Positions 1 to 5,366 of a stretch of 64,000 nucleotides of DNA are shown piece by piece. The stretch is from Actinomadura macrotermitis (GTDB lineage Bacteria > Actinomycetota > Actinomycetes > Streptosporangiales > Streptosporangiaceae), in NCBI RefSeq assembly GCF_009604375.1, contig NZ_WEGH01000001.1, positions 1,426,001 through 1,490,000 of the forward strand, read 5' to 3'. The notes under the pieces are model-generated. The model was not told the DNA's origin, made no database searches, and was given only the letters and a program-made list of their open reading frames with translations. Numbering within the stretch: the first letter of the stretch is position 1; each line of letters begins with the position of its first letter. The position numbers were made by a program, and so were the translations under genes.

Positions 1-384
1 GGGCGGATAGTCCTCGCCGACCGGCACCCCCTCCGCCTCCACCCAGGCGTGCGCGCCGAAGGGCGGCAGGCGCCGCGCGCCCACGCACCAGGTGGGCCAC
101 CGGCCGTGCAGGCGGCACAGCAGGGCCGTGGCCAGGGACCGGGGCAGGCATCCCTCCCTGCCGCCGCACGCCAGGCTGACCGCGACCACGTCGTCGCGGG
201 CCGCCCGGGTCTGCGCCACGGTCGCCGGGCGGGCGCCGCGGCGCAGGGCGTCCAGTACGGCGCGGATGCGGCGGGGACGCTGGGTGGCCAGCAGCCGCGC
301 GGCGCCCACGACGACCCGCACCAGGATCCGGCGCCGGAACGGCACCGAGCGCGGACGGTGGTAGATGGCCTCCGGTGTGCTCAT
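1..384 (-). CDS. Lasso peptide B2 leader peptidase (partial)
   Basis: Transglutaminase-like cysteine protease of the McjB C-terminal/lasso B2 family, which cuts the leader from the precursor peptide. The reading frame starts at an ATG that overlaps the stop of the upstream gene (ATGA) and runs off the left edge after 128 codons, so the C-terminus is missing. The segment GGREGCLPRSLATALLCRLHG carries the presumed nucleophile Cys79. The later FGAHAWVEAEG segment carries the catalytic His112. Both match the family pattern. It is the last visible gene of a four-gene lasso cluster. A lasso exporter (D gene) would be expected beyond the edge, but that cannot be seen. Confidence 0.88.
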   Translation of the reverse strand, partial: MSTPEAIYHRPRSVPFRRRILVRVVVGAARLLATQRPRRIRAVLDALRRGARPATVAQTRAARDDVVAVSLACGGREGCLPRSLATALLCRLHGRWPTWCVGARRLPPFGAHAWVEAEGVPVGEDYPP

Positions 385-689
385 CGGGCCTTCCCCAGTC
401 GCCACCGGCGCGGGCCGCGCCGTCCCGCACCCTCCTCCTCGGCGAGCCCCGCCGCGCACAGTTCACCGACCAGGTCCCGCACGTCCTGCCGGGCGCTCGC
501 GCCGTCCACCGCGTACTCGTCGGTGAGCGACCGTACGGCGTCGTCGTCCGTGCCGCCGTTCAACAGGGTCCGCAGGATGATCGCGGCACTGGGATTGAGG
601 GTCCAGTACTGGTCGTGGTCCTCGTCGAGAAGGGCGATTCCGTATTCGGTGTCGGCGGTGAACACGCCGTCGCGCAGTTTGAGCGTCAT
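381..689 (-). CDS. Lasso peptide B1 / PqqD-family RiPP recognition protein
   Basis: 102-aa PqqD-like protein, the stand-alone RiPP recognition element that in split-B lasso systems binds the precursor leader and presents it to B2. The sequence has the family layout: a beta-rich start (MTLKLRDGVFTADTEYGIALLDE), the motif YWTLNPSAAIILRTLLNGG and a helical end with DVRDLVGELCAAGL. It sits 12 nt after the cyclase gene and overlaps B2 by 4 nt, so translation is probably coupled. Length is slightly above the usual 80-95 residues because of a basic C-terminal tail. Its likely ligand is the YxxPxL motif in the precursor leader at 2595-2705. Confidence 0.9.
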   Translation of the reverse strand: MTLKLRDGVFTADTEYGIALLDEDHDQYWTLNPSAAIILRTLLNGGTDDDAVRSLTDEYAVDGASARQDVRDLVGELCAAGLAEEEGAGRRGPRRWRLGKAR

Positions 690-701
690 GATCGGTCTCC
701 C

Positions 702-2513
702 TCAGGCGGGGATGGCGGCGGCCTCCTGTGCGCGCAGCCACACTTCGCATGCCACGGTCTGGAACAGCGCGTCGAACTGCAGGTCCGGGGGCAGCGGCCG
801 GGAGCACACCTCCCGCAGCGCGTCCGCGTCGATCAAGCCCATGCGGGCCAGCCGCGAGTCCTCGCACAGGGCCAGCAGCTCGCCCCGCTGCTCCCGCAGC
901 CCTGTCTCCACCGCGTGGTCGCCGCTGTCCTTGGTGTGGCGGGTGAGGGACTCGCCGGGGACGATCCCGCGCATCGCCTCGACGATGAGCGGCTTGTACC
1001 GCCAAGGGGTGATCCTGTCCTGCGGCCGCACCGCCAGGCCGGCCTCGACCACGCGGTCGTCGTAGTACGGGGCGGCGACGGCGAGCCCGAGCGGGGCGGT
1101 CATCTGGCCGAGCTGCCGCACCATGCGGGCCGAGCCGCCCATGGCCTCCAGCTCGACGTGCTGTCCGCGCGTCCCGGCCAGCGGCTCGGCGGTCCGGGCC
1201 GCGGCGCGGATCAGTTCCCGCACCGCCCGCACCGTGTCCGGTGTCACCCACGGGGGCAGGCGCGGCGGTGTGCCCCAGCCCAGGGTGGGCGTCTCCAAGG
1301 GGGGCGGCGGGTCGGTGAGCCCGTCGCCGGCCCGGGCGAGCCACGCCCGGTAGGTGCTGCCGTCCCGCAGCTGCCGGAGCGTCTCCCGGTACGGCCACGG
1401 GCGCTGGGCGGCGAAGCCGCGCACGCGTTGCCACGCGACCCGGGGGTGCGTGCGCATCAGCGTGTGCAGGTGCGCGGGCGAGCCGGCGAGCAGCTCGTCC
1501 CCGCCGAAGCCGGTCAGGTGCAGCGTGGAGCCCTGTGCCGTGGCCAGCCGGGGGATGGCCAGCCAGCGGTCGCGCTGGGCGGCGACCGGGCTCGGCTCGT
1601 CGAGGTGGTCGCCGGTCTCCCGCATGCCCGCGTACACGGGCGGCACCTGGTCGCCGGGCATGACGTGGTGCTCGACCTCGTTCCCGAGCCCGGCGACCGT
1701 GCGGCGGGCCCAGGCCGCGTCCTCGCCCATGGGGTCGAGACCGTCGGAGGTGTAGGCGATGACCCGCCTGCCATTCCGGGCGGCAAGGGAGCACAGCGAG
1801 GTCGAGTCCAGCCCGCCCAGGTCGCAGCTCACCACGTCCCGCCCCTGCAGACGGGCCTCGACCGCGGCGGACAGCGCCTCCCGCAGCGCGGGTGCGCCCT
1901 CGGCCATCGGCACCACCGGCTCGGGGGCGGTCCACCACGCGACGGTCCGGGGCCGGCCGGCCTGGTCGAGCACCAGGTAGTGGGCGGGCCGGAGAGCCGT
2001 CACCGGACGCCAGACCGGCTCGCCGGTCACCGGATGCATCCCGAACGTGTTCAGCAGGTGGACCGCGAGCCGCTGCTCGTCGACGTCCGCCTCCAGCAGG
2101 CCGGCCAGCACGTCGGCCCGGTCGGCGGCCACGGTGACGTCGCCGACGCGGGCATGGAACAGCCTGCGGAGGCCGGTGACGGTCCCCTGCGCGCGTACGC
2201 ATCCGGCGACCGAGGCGGCGAGGTGCGCGCTCCCGGTCAGGGACCTCGCCAGCGCGTCCAGGCCGGCGATCGTGTCCGTCCGGCGGGCGGCCGCGGCGAG
2301 CCGCTCGGCGGTGACCGCGTGCTCCCCCACGACCGCGATCTTCACCCGGCCCGCCTCGCCCACGGCGAGCGTGCCGGGAGACCAGTGGCCCAGCAGCCAG
2401 GGCCGGCCCGACGGGTGGGCGATCTCCTGGACCTCTTGCGCGCGGCCGCGCAGCGCGGCGCCGGCGGGGGCCGCCGCGGCGCAGTCCGGCAGGACGACGA
2501 ACCAGTCGGCCAT
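702..2513 (-). CDS. Lasso macrolactam synthetase (asparagine synthase homologue, C protein)
   Basis: 603-aa asparagine-synthetase-like enzyme, the lasso cyclase that adenylates an Asp/Glu side chain of the core and forms the macrolactam with the core N-terminus. The ATP pyrophosphatase signature appears as LGGLDSTS near residue 237, with downstream FGGDELLAG and YYDDRVVEAGL typical of the synthase domain. The N-terminus is Met-Ala-Asp, without the Cys2 glutaminase nucleophile, as expected for lasso C proteins that do not use glutamine. The start has a good ribosome site (AGGAGAG). It lies 81 bp after the precursor gene, separated by a strong hairpin. Confidence 0.92.
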   Translation of the reverse strand: MADWFVVLPDCAAAAPAGAALRGRAQEVQEIAHPSGRPWLLGHWSPGTLAVGEAGRVKIAVVGEHAVTAERLAAAARRTDTIAGLDALARSLTGSAHLAASVAGCVRAQGTVTGLRRLFHARVGDVTVAADRADVLAGLLEADVDEQRLAVHLLNTFGMHPVTGEPVWRPVTALRPAHYLVLDQAGRPRTVAWWTAPEPVVPMAEGAPALREALSAAVEARLQGRDVVSCDLGGLDSTSLCSLAARNGRRVIAYTSDGLDPMGEDAAWARRTVAGLGNEVEHHVMPGDQVPPVYAGMRETGDHLDEPSPVAAQRDRWLAIPRLATAQGSTLHLTGFGGDELLAGSPAHLHTLMRTHPRVAWQRVRGFAAQRPWPYRETLRQLRDGSTYRAWLARAGDGLTDPPPPLETPTLGWGTPPRLPPWVTPDTVRAVRELIRAAARTAEPLAGTRGQHVELEAMGGSARMVRQLGQMTAPLGLAVAAPYYDDRVVEAGLAVRPQDRITPWRYKPLIVEAMRGIVPGESLTRHTKDSGDHAVETGLREQRGELLALCEDSRLARMGLIDADALREVCSRPLPPDLQFDALFQTVACEVWLRAQEAAAIPA

Positions 2514-2544
2514 GACCGTCCTCTCCTGGCGCCCGGAATCAGAA

Positions 2545-2582
2545 GACGGGGGCTGCGGAAACCGCTACCGCAACCCGCCGTC
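2545..2582 (-). terminator. Intercistronic hairpin after lasso precursor
   Basis: GACGG at one end pairs with CCGTC at the other, enclosing a second GC-rich stem (GCGG/CCGC) around a TAGCGGTTT loop. It lies between the precursor stop and the cyclase start, with no T tract. It is more likely an attenuator or mRNA-stabilising hairpin that raises precursor expression over the enzymes than a full terminator. Confidence 0.5.
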
Positions 2583-2594
2583 TCAGGGGCTTGC

Positions 2595-2705
2595 TCACAG
2601 GCTGAACCGGAGGGCGAGGAGCCTTTCGGGGCCTCTGTTGGTGCCCAGGCCGGTCCTGCGGAAGCTACCTGCCGCGGTAAGCGTCGGACGCTCGTAAACA
2701 CGCAT
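2595..2705 (-). CDS. Lasso peptide precursor (A protein)
   Basis: 36-aa precursor, too short for usual gene finding. The leader is MRVYERPTLTAAGSFRRTG. It contains the B1-binding motif Y4-x2-P7-x-L9 followed by G13 and F15, and Thr18, which falls at the penultimate (-2) leader position required by B2. The predicted core is LGTNRGPERLLALRFSL (17 aa), with an 8-residue ring between the Leu1 amine and the Glu8 side chain and a 9-residue basic/hydrophobic tail. If cleavage is one residue earlier, the ring would be Gly1-Glu9. A near-perfect ribosome site (AAGGAGGTG) lies just upstream of the ATG. The cyclase, B1 and B2 follow directly. Confidence 0.93.
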   Translation of the reverse strand: MRVYERPTLTAAGSFRRTGLGTNRGPERLLALRFSL

Positions 2706-2870
2706 GGTGTACACCTCCTTCCGTGCCTTGGGTGAACTCCCGTTACCTCAAGAGTTCATGCCCAGCACATCTATATCCAGCCTAGGCCTAATTTCCGTTA
2801 CCACAATTCGGCTCCCTTCAAATGTTCCATGCAAGACCTTTAATCACTCTATGAAGTCGGCGGTTCTCCC
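2706..2870 (-). promoter_or_regulatory. Lasso cluster promoter region, AT-rich with direct repeats
   Basis: The stretch before the precursor is clearly richer in A/T than its surroundings. On the minus strand a TATAGAT -10-like element lies about 64 nt upstream of the start (2769-2775). The 8-mer CCGTTACC occurs twice on the plus strand, at 2740-2747 and 2795-2802, 55 bp apart and on either side of the -10-like element. This looks like a regulated promoter. No convincing -35 was found. Confidence 0.45.
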
Positions 2871-3326
2871 CTTCGGACGGCAGGCCGCCCAGCGAGCGGA
2901 CTTCCCGATGAGGCTGCGGCCTCGGCCCCGCAACTACCGGATCGGCCAGGACACCGGCGCGGCGCCACCAACGACGGACCGGCAGCGGCCGCCGTACGCT
3001 TCTGTGCCCACGACAGTCCCCGGCCGCGCCCGACTTTTAGAACGGTTCCACGATTACGGACGGCCGCCGGAATCTCCGGTGGAATTGTCATGGTACGAAG
3101 GAATGCGGTCCCGACGAGCAGGACACTGCGAGCCGCGGGACGCCTGCGCCAGCCCCGCGCCCGGAGCCTGCCCGCCGCCGTACCCACGGGGCGGCGGGCG
3201 GCCTCGGCGGGCACCCGACCGGACGGGCATCCGCGAAAGATCGTTCCGGAGCATATTTGATCAATGGTCCGTCGACATCGACATAGCGGCTGGGAAACCA
3301 CTCTGATAACAATTCGGGAGCCGGGG
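2871..3326. other. Gene-free stretch between the lasso cluster and the next gene
   Basis: About 450 bases with only short, low-quality open frames on both strands. No RNA gene, repeat or clear promoter was recognised beyond the lasso promoter to its left. It separates divergently transcribed units. Confidence 0.4.
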
Positions 3327-3764
3327 GTGTCCTCATGCCGTCCGCTGCTGGATGCTGCTGGCGTGAGTGCGACCCCGGAAGTGCGGACATCGCCGGCCGA
3401 CCGCACGATCCGGCACCTGAAAGGCTGGCCGGCCCTGCGGCTGTGCCGGGCCGACTGCGGCACCGGCAGGGCGTTCACGCTCGGCAGCGAGCAGATCCTG
3501 CATCTGCACGGACCGCACGAGGCCGAGCTCTACCTCACCGCGCCGATCGTGCAGCGCATCAACGGTGCTCTCGGAGAGTGCGCCATGGTCACGACGCGGC
3601 AGGGCAGCGGGTGGGTGCGGTTCCGGCTGGAGAGCGAGACCGACGTCGCGCTGCTGGTCTCCTTGGTCAGCGTGGCCATCAAGGCCAACACCGCGGCGGC
3701 GTCCTCCCCGTCCCGCCGGATAGCGCCCTGCTCACTGGGTATCCCTACATCGCGAAGAGAATGA
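3327..3764 (+). CDS. DUF5519 (luciferase-domain-like) family protein
   Basis: 145-aa protein resembling the small 'luciferase family' DUF5519 proteins of actinomycetes. The C-terminal half has the family pattern: a segment around EILHLHGPHEAELYLT-like text, then SGWVRFRLESETDVALLVSLVSVAIKAN, matching the usual ending in which a GWVxFR strand is followed by a helix. The family has no established biochemical role, despite its name. The GTG start is chosen for the GGGAG sequence six bases upstream; an ATG at 3264 lacks a ribosome site. The C-terminal tail after residue 125 is low complexity. It probably stands alone. Confidence 0.6.
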   Translation: MSSCRPLLDAAGVSATPEVRTSPADRTIRHLKGWPALRLCRADCGTGRAFTLGSEQILHLHGPHEAELYLTAPIVQRINGALGECAMVTTRQGSGWVRFRLESETDVALLVSLVSVAIKANTAAASSPSRRIAPCSLGIPTSRRE

Positions 3765-3798
3765 CACCGCGAACACCCAGGGAAAAGGGGATTCCGCC

Positions 3799-4017
3799 AT
3801 GGCTCAGGCAGGGGAGCCCGAGGTGCGCGAGCAGCAGGCCATGAAGGAAGTGACCCGCCGTCTCACCACCACCTTCGCCGATTCCCACCCGCCCGAACAG
3901 GTGACCCACACCATCGATGCGGTCTACCACCGCTTCGACGAGCGCCCCATCCGCGACTTCGTGCCGATTCTGGTCGAACGGCTCACCCGCGAACGGCTCA
4001 CCGCGTCGCGGCACTGA
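3799..4017 (+). CDS. Three-helix bundle dimerisation domain protein
   Basis: 72-aa acidic/basic helical protein resembling the short actinomycete 'three-helix bundle dimerization' proteins, which otherwise occur as the N-terminal domain of some protein-tyrosine-phosphatase-like and arsenate-reductase-like enzymes. Visible pattern: VREQQAMKEVTRRLTTTFADSHPPEQVTHTIDAVYHRFDERPIRDFVPILVERLTRERL, with the typical 'F...ip..V...v......F..a.vRdFVP.LVer' spacing. No catalytic domain follows, so this is a free-standing domain. A GC-rich hairpin closes the transcript. Confidence 0.65.
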   Translation: MAQAGEPEVREQQAMKEVTRRLTTTFADSHPPEQVTHTIDAVYHRFDERPIRDFVPILVERLTRERLTASRH

Positions 4018-4041
4018 GCCCCTCGGTACCGGCGCCCTTCC

Positions 4042-4083
4042 GTGATCGCGCGGTCTCGGTACCGCACGTGGCCGCGCGATCAC
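4042..4083 (+). terminator. Hairpin terminator
   Basis: Perfect 12-bp inverted repeat: GTGATCGCGCGG at 4042-4053 and its complement at 4072-4083, with an 18-nt loop. It lies 25 bp after the preceding stop codon. There is no T tract, as is usual in high-GC actinomycetes. Confidence 0.55.
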
Positions 4084-4157
4084 TCCCCCTTCCGTTCCGC
4101 TCAACGGCCTGACGAACCGCGGACCGGGAACGCAGGGGTGGTCGTAAGGTTGGCGGC

Positions 4158-5366
4158 GTGGAGGAGGCTACGGGCGATCTGGGTGACGTCACTCGCAAGC
4201 TCGCGAACATTCAGGCGATCACCGAGTCGTTCGCGTCCCTGGACGTCGACGAGTTCCTGAACGCCCTGCTGGAGCGGGTCCGCCACGTGCTCGACGTGGA
4301 CACCGCGGTGGTGCTGCTGCTGGACGAGCAGTCGCAGATGCTGGTGGCGACCGCGGCCAAGGGCATCGAGGAAGAGGTCAACCAGGCCGCGCACGTGCCG
4401 GTGGGGCAGGGGTTCGCCGGGCAGGTGGCGGCCGAGCTGCGGCCGGTGTACATCGCCGACGTCGCCAGCGCCGGGGTGTTCAACCCGCTGCTGGTGCAGC
4501 GCGGGCTGCACTCGCTGCTGGGGGTGCCGCTGATCGCGGAGAACGCGCTGGTGGGGGTGCTGCACGTCGGGACGCTGAGCCCGCGGCGGTTCACCGCCGA
4601 GGAGGTCGAGCTGCTGCAGCTGGCCGCCGCCCGCGTCGCGCTGGCGGTGCAGTCCCTGCTGCACCGCGCCGAGCGGGCCGGTGCGCTGGAGCTGCAGCGC
4701 AGCCTGGTGCCCGCCGCGCCGCCGGCCGTGCCCGGCCTGGAGCTGGCCGCCCGGTACCGGGCCGGGGCGGCCGCCGTCGGCGGGGACTGGTACGACGCGT
4801 TCACCCTGCCGTCGGGCGAGGTCGGCATCGTCATCGGCGACGTGGTGGGGCACGGGCTGAAGGCCGCGGTGGTGATGGGCCGGATGCGCAGCGCCCTGCG
4901 CGCGTACGCGCTGGAGACCACCGACCCGGCCGACGTCCTGGAGCGGCTGGACCGCAAGATCCAGCACTTCGAGCCGGACGCGACCGCGACCGTGCTGTAC
5001 GCGGTCTACGACCCGGGCACCGGCCGGATGCGCATCGCCTCGGCCGGCCACTGCCCGCCCGTGCTGGCCCTGCCGGGCGAGGAGGCCAGGCTGTTCGACA
5101 TCAAGGGCGGCGTCCTGCTCGGGTTCAGCGCCGAACACCGCAGGTCCACCACCCTCGCCCTGCAGCCGGGCGCCGCGTTGTGCTTCTACACCGACGGCCT
5201 GGTGGAACGGCGCGACAGCACCATCATCGCCGGCATCGGCCGCCTGTGCCGGGCCGCCTACGCCGGCGAACCCGAGGCGGTCAGCGCGGCCATCATGGCC
5301 GAGCTGATCGGCCGGACGCCTGCCGACGACGACGTCGCCCTGCTGGTCATGCGCCGCAAGCCCTGA
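4158..5366 (+). CDS. GAF-domain PP2C/SpoIIE-type serine phosphatase
   Basis: 402-aa soluble phosphatase of the RsbU/SpoIIE type, which in actinomycetes dephosphorylates anti-anti-sigma factors. The GAF sensor domain covers roughly residues 15-165 (ALLERVRHVLDVDTAVVLLLDE, GQGFAGQVA, GVPLIAENALVGVLHVG). The PPM phosphatase covers roughly 185-400, with the metal-binding motifs GGDWYDAF and GDVVGHGLKAA, then SAGHCPPVL and FYTDGLVERRD, and the final DDDVALLVMR. The start is GTG. It has no partner anti-sigma gene nearby. Its 3' end overlaps the end of the convergent peptidase gene by 20 bp. Confidence 0.9.
   Translation: MEEATGDLGDVTRKLANIQAITESFASLDVDEFLNALLERVRHVLDVDTAVVLLLDEQSQMLVATAAKGIEEEVNQAAHVPVGQGFAGQVAAELRPVYIADVASAGVFNPLLVQRGLHSLLGVPLIAENALVGVLHVGTLSPRRFTAEEVELLQLAAARVALAVQSLLHRAERAGALELQRSLVPAAPPAVPGLELAARYRAGAAAVGGDWYDAFTLPSGEVGIVIGDVVGHGLKAAVVMGRMRSALRAYALETTDPADVLERLDRKIQHFEPDATATVLYAVYDPGTGRMRIASAGHCPPVLALPGEEARLFDIKGGVLLGFSAEHRRSTTLALQPGAALCFYTDGLVERRDSTIIAGIGRLCRAAYAGEPEAVSAAIMAELIGRTPADDDVALLVMRRKP

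Follow-up and report, generated by a model that had tools for sequence, protein, structure and literature searches.

The leaders of lasso peptide precursors usually follow the motif YxxPxLxxxGxxxxxTx, which places Tyr at position -17 (PMC6856326); in a further set YxxPxL occupies positions -17 to -12 and Ile at -2 is reported as a variation, the accessible text of that study containing no mention of a shorter spacer that we could find (PMC10368454). Counting by eye, 17 residues run from Tyr to the cut in six of the seven precursors printed in the accessible parts of two papers, namely A127-LP, 9401-LP1, 9401-LP2, 9810-LP and Snou-LP (Table 1 of PMC5974421) and leepeptin (PMC6856326), the seventh, Sven-LP, being without the Tyr motif (PMC5974421). 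Tyr at -17 is a usual feature of lasso leaders and not a defining one. Leu opens three of the 62 cores in the table of PMC12427821, those of citrulassin, lagmysin and stlassin. Leepeptin had been predicted to begin with Gly and was found as LYGVRNDE..., cut at TG/L (the slash marking the cut) and closed by a Leu1-Glu8 bond (PMC6856326), and citrulassin N has a Leu1-Asp8 bond (PMC12971885).

The locus considered here lies at the left end of the window, by which we mean the whole stretch of DNA analysed, 64,000 nucleotides of the Actinomadura macrotermitis genome (contig positions 1426001-1490000). A 36-residue ORF on the minus strand (2705-2595) encodes MRVYERPTLTAAGSFRRTGLGTNRGPERLLALRFSL followed by a stop (Table 1). 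A preliminary description made from the letters had taken this ORF, with its strong ribosome site, for a lasso precursor, and this is borne out: an AAGGAGG box precedes the ATG, with a similar site before the ATG in most relatives, and the translation, searched without its first Met, matches Pfam PF19397 (DUF5972; 37.0 bits, cut-off 22.6), a family for which a literature search returned no paper, and the NCBIfam model lasso_leader_L3 (19 bits, cut-off 19). The pooled pN/pS ratio is 0.33 over the 45 pairs of ten precursors of the Gly-Pro-Glu (GPE) type (leader 0.34, core 0.32), computed with L039 set aside for its length along with L042 and L096, and this precursor against its nine relatives gives 0.14-0.56; selection acts on the precursor gene at the protein level. 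A chance ORF was considered and is ruled out by these profile matches, the pN/pS ratios and the aligned relatives. An in-frame GTG at 2714 abuts the Shine-Dalgarno sequence and is hence a poorer start than the ATG. The same description had credited the ORF with every lasso precursor mark; YxxPxL, the Gly, the Phe and the Thr at -2 (this last depending on the register chosen) are indeed in place, as is an acid within core positions 7-9, Glu8, whereas the stretch between Phe and Thr lacks one residue, which puts Tyr at -16 and leaves 16 residues from Tyr to the cut. Upstream, a 12-base motif search with L040 left out scored 148.7 against 125.4-132.9 in three shuffles, an 18-base run placed the site of this locus elsewhere than the 12-base run, and a simple scan upstream of A returned no sigma-70-like site.

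Table 1. Features of the lasso locus, in window positions
Feature	Positions	Strand	Remarks
A gene, leader MRVYERPTLTAAGSFRRTG	2649..2705	minus	carries YxxPxLxxxGxF, with Thr at -2; Phe-Thr spacer shorter by one residue
A gene, core LGTNRGPERLLALRFSL and stop	2595..2648	minus	17 residues; predicted Leu1-Glu8 ring
Ribosome site AAGGAGG	2714..2720	minus	eight bases 5' of the ATG
Possible promoter TTGTGG-16-TAGGCT	2779..2806	minus	by eye, from a motif common to the upstream regions of relatives; weak
C, lasso cyclase, asparagine-synthetase-like	702..2513	minus	603 aa; PF00733, 135.7 bits
B1, RiPP recognition element, PqqD-like	381..689	minus	102 aa; lasso_PqqD_Strm, 103.1 bits (cut-off 70)
B2, leader peptidase, transglutaminase-like	1..384	minus	lasso_biosyn_B2, 113.6 bits (cut-off 33); PF13471

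The gene order A-C-B1-B2 given in the preliminary description is confirmed by matches to family models, and an ABC exporter of 567 residues, D, which starts on the stop codon of B2, follows just beyond the left window edge. B2 crosses that edge and ends 50 bases outside; it is complete in the genome, with 145 residues, and is the sole PF13471 match there. All five genes are open, and the locus thereby combines a recognition element (RRE; B1), a transglutaminase-like peptidase (B2) and an asparagine-synthetase-like cyclase (C) with the short precursor. The precursor, B1 and B2 are all picked up by curated models; C falls below the curated cyclase cut-offs, its best such model, for albusnodin/ikarugamycin macrolactam cyclases, giving 231.9 bits against a cut-off of 300; its PF00733 score is well above cut-off and its near relatives are named lasso peptide isopeptide bond-forming cyclases. 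Among solved structures, B1 matches the RREs TfuB1 (6jx3, E=3.6e-13) and TbiB1 (5v1u, E=0.0046), with none found for C at E<=1e-5 or for the core at E<=1. In B2, Cys79, His112 and Glu124, which we take to be functional residues, are kept in all 29 aligned homologues, and C, compared with 29 aligned homologues, keeps D231, L232, G234, S237 and T238, presumably part of the ATP site. A column comparison of homologues, made with L096, L097, L098 and L102 left out, marks two positions in B2 and fifteen in C as specific to the short-leader clade, and yielded no change in B1 that would compensate for the short leader. Outside the window, some 1.1 kb past the D gene, lies a cyclodipeptide synthase gene (contig 1422106-1423158, minus; PF16715, 136.1 bits); no such ORF family is common to the other lasso loci compared.

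Two features missed by the preliminary description are a conserved core family and a one-residue shortening of the leader that its members share. Judged by alignment, the core is a member of a conserved GPE-type family with near-identical members in Streptomyces. A contig scan with C returned 12 loci. In eleven of them (L037-L047) C is preceded by a precursor with the short leader, and ten of these precursors have a GPE core; in the remaining one, L042 of Streptomyces lomondensis (from 5792), the precursor core is out of the family frame, and the genes for C, B1, B2 and D seem intact. The twelfth locus, L048, has a GPPD core and a standard leader. The order A-C-B1-B2-D is kept in 12 of 13 GPE-type loci, this one included. 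The exception, L096 of genome G829 (1096-3273), retains an open precursor and D, but of C no more than some 50 N-terminal residues, and neither B1 nor B2; together with the frame of L042 this indicates that the cluster is not retained everywhere. Identity of D to the exporter described here ranges from 43% (L043) to 80% (L037). In the alignment of eleven precursors, ours included and L042 left out, Y4, E5, R6, P7, T8, L9, G13, S14, F15, T18 and G19 of the leader and G21, G25, P26 and E27 of the core are invariant, Glu8 of the core thus being present in 11/11; core positions 9 and 14 are Arg or Lys in all eleven, position 5 is Arg in ten, and ten end in [RK]FS[LF]. Two ORF families recur upstream of A, at distances of up to 6 kb, in L037, L045, L047 and L048 (4 of the 13 loci compared); we take them to be argG- and argH-like.

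Tyr stands at -16, not -17, in this precursor and in the other 12 GPE-type precursors read. In a tree of 30 cyclases, rooted at its midpoint only and built with L096, L097 and L098 left out for a lost, cut-off or fused C, the 12 short-leader rows form one group with support 100/99, and all other rows (18/18) have Tyr at -17, the leader of L088 (FRRTTG) having been assigned as standard by eye. The leader shortening would thus most simply have arisen once and been kept in the 13 family members read, so the B1/B2 pairs of this family would accept, or need, a shorter reach. In a citrulassin-type locus, L098 of G049 (1070-4132), a portion of C continues into the terminal part of B2 and B1 has no match, reflecting either loss or an assembly fault.

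Within the genus (65 genomes, E<=1e-3) the precursor profile finds this GPE-type cluster and 12 of citrulassin type, and in wider scans at E<=1e-4, of the order (345 genomes) and the class (394), it is the only GPE-type cluster found, G608 carrying a GPD type. In 392 genomes of the genus of G361, presumably Streptomyces since the precursor of G703 sits at the contig position that it has in Streptomyces sp. CB03234 (L037), 16 matches at E<=1e-6 comprise five of GPE type, eight of GPKD/GPRD type and three of GPPD type; with about 19-22 candidates scored per genome, the order, class and G361-genus scans may have missed some. Plasmid records gave no match to the precursor. The cyclase family is large (898 relatives at E<=1e-100 among 7994 candidates scored), and the best relatives of C in a large protein set, including one from Streptomyces sp. 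NPDC049837, are 85-87% identical. In the cyclase tree C is sister to that of Streptomyces sp. CB03234 (100/99), and the other members of the clade are from Streptomyces and two unplaced actinobacterial MAGs (L043, L044). Since C nests among Streptomyces cyclases though its host, of the same class, belongs to another order, the cluster was likely acquired horizontally. A GAF-SpoIIE gene (window 4158-5366) is common to ten genomes of the genus; comparing its left side, 20 kb in this genome have no match longer than 250 bases to those ten, which shows this stretch to be a variable region without thereby marking an insertion point. On the plus strand of window 3264-4017 lie a small ORF matching the PF17648 "luciferase domain" (42.8 bits) and another of 72 aa matching a three-helix domain (74.1 bits); G013, G026, G051 and G103 have matching DNA, which in them is separated from the GAF-SpoIIE gene.

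Building on the genes, their families and order, the conserved core and the short leader observed at these loci, we propose with considerable confidence that this is a complete A-C-B1-B2-D lasso cluster whose precursor is cut after Thr-Gly and closed between Leu1 and Glu8 to give LGTNRGPERLLALRFSL, a likely threaded, cationic peptide of 17 residues exported by D. B1 would bind YERPTLTAAGSF in the leader, B2 would cut two residues after the Thr-containing end, at TG/L, and C would activate Glu8 with ATP and join it to the amine of Leu1 around a pre-folded tail, for which Arg14 and Phe15 are the likely plugs; the mature peptide is predicted to leave through D. With no Cys in the core it would fall into class II, and the product type is likely that of an ordinary lasso peptide. 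The earlier prediction of an eight-residue ring to Glu8 stands, and the earlier mass of about 1894.09 Da agrees with the 1894.0901 Da now computed for cyclised LGTNRGPERLLALRFSL ([M+H]+ 1895.0974, [M+2H]2+ 948.0523), which has a net charge of about +2 from its three Arg and free C-terminus.

The register on which this product depends, TG/LGTNRGPERLLALRFSL, is the best of three possible ones, in which Glu would stand at position 7, 8 or 9; as Tyr at -16 is off the usual spacing, the cut could have shifted too. Cutting one residue later, at TGL/GTNRGPE, would make a seven-residue Gly1-Glu7 ring ([M+H]+ 1782.0133) and retain the usual Tyr distance of -17, and the Gly after Leu or Ile is invariant in all eleven aligned precursors, as a first core residue often is. 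It would, however, leave Thr at -3, and both leepeptin and the citrulassins are cut at TG/L (PMC6856326, PMC12971885). A sister locus in G608 (L063/L086), YERPTLTAAGTFDKKTG IGISSGPDGVLLRKRL, also favours the cut at TG/L: its leader is of full length, Tyr standing at -17 and Thr at -2, and TG is followed by IGISSGPD, the same (I/L)-G-x-x-x-G-P-acid frame as our core with the acid at 8, so that the missing residue is most simply explained by a deletion in the leader and not by a shifted core; we regard the later cut as improbable. Still fainter is the prospect of a cut directly after Thr, T/GLGTNRGPE, with a nine-residue Gly1-Glu9 ring ([M+H]+ 1952.1188): Gly is the commonest first residue among the lasso cores in the table of PMC12427821, yet Thr would then stand at -1 and Tyr at -15, and leepeptin was at first predicted in just this way and found otherwise (PMC6856326).

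With the cut at TG/L retained, Arg9 sits directly behind the ring as in the citrulassins, and its conversion to citrulline would give a cyclised mass of 1895.0741; a PAD gene occurs in two of five Streptomyces GPE carriers (G703, G745). Linkage of PAD to the citrulassins does not extend to all carriers, and matches in 4 of 12 citrulassin-type genomes of the genus indicate that it is not closely tied to the type. The genome studied here has no PAD match in a search that was positive in 6 of 19 genomes, and three of 11 family members have Lys at position 9, one being the precursor of the PAD-carrying G703, all of which makes citrulline in this product very improbable. A separate matter, which may hold beside our preferred reading, is whether an acquired cluster is silent or decaying and makes nothing in this host. 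Its isolation as the only GPE-type cluster found in 65 genomes of the genus, the nesting of its cyclase among those of Streptomyces and the decay in G829 and L042 speak for this, but the five genes are all open and the precursor's pN/pS against its nine relatives is 0.14-0.56; we judge this reading unlikely.

We suggest that the conserved positive charges at 9 and 14 (Arg or Lys) and at 5 (mostly Arg), together with the RFSL end, may point to one conserved target, and that selection maintains a function. A narrow-spectrum antibacterial role against related actinomycetes is a guess to which we give somewhat less than even weight. We are evenly divided on a broader proposal, namely that these loci represent a mobile, undescribed family of cationic Leu1-Glu8 peptides, LGxxRGPE[RK]xxxx[RK]FSL, with a reset leader ruler that brings Thr one residue nearer the RRE-binding motif, and with charges and tail serving a single conserved target. 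The locus adds a lasso family that is uncharacterised within the searches made; with its masses predicted exactly and relatives identified by name among public Streptomyces genomes, several routes are open for testing production. The common one-residue deletion amounts to a natural experiment on how rigidly the B2 cut is spaced from the motif that the RRE binds, and presenting B1/B2 of this clade with leaders of either length would be a direct test of leader spacing. The conserved core family and the shared leader deletion are the parts most worth specialist attention.

The preliminary description knew of no lasso peptide with this core and called it unusual. The first point agrees with our searches: the core is not among the 62 lassos in the table of PMC12427821, of which 41, with leepeptin, were scored against it without a near match (best capistruin 13.0, citrulassin 10.5; self 84) and the remaining 21 compared by eye, and nothing close appears in the accessible parts of PMC13352647 or PMC9576775. 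The core strings were found in no paper of the literature searched, though a prediction may well exist in a mining table, most subscription papers and all supplementary tables having been out of reach, and strings of family variants led to one unrelated paper only. The second point is borne out only in part, for citrulassin, lagmysin, stlassin and leepeptin also begin with Leu and the family has near-identical members in Streptomyces.

Leepeptin shares the Leu1-Glu8 ring after a TG/L cut, established there by mass and NMR, and differs in its unrelated core LYGVRNDEEINWHFDYWT of 18 residues and its standard leader (PMC6856326). The citrulassins resemble our locus in the TG/L cut, Leu1, Gly6, an acid at 8, Arg9 and the same gene types, but have Asp in place of Glu at 8, GND in place of GPE, an SKN tail, a standard leader and, in part, citrulline at 9 (PMC12971885); our core, with GPER and RFSL, departs from their pattern LLxxxG[NR]DRxxxSKN with Asp8, and their cyclases, about 48-51% identical to C, form a separate clade of the tree. 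Lagmysin, LAGQGSPDLLGGHSLL, likewise has Leu1 and an acid at 8 (PMC12427821), and the GPKD/GPRD-type look-alikes from Streptomyces, which on our reading of their sequences would belong with it, share YERPTL leaders and the Gly-Pro corner with our precursor. Lagmysin and these look-alikes are set apart by Asp8, GGKQLL-like tails, a standard leader and a separate cyclase clade. The closest counterpart is the Streptomyces sp. CB03234 cluster (L037), uncharacterised within the literature searched, with the same gene order, a short leader and the core LGTTRGPEKHLVLKFSL, which differs from ours by five substitutions; its C, B1, B2 and D are 79%, 71%, 90% and 80% identical to those described here, and ORF families that we presume to be argG- and argH-like replace the neighbours of our locus.
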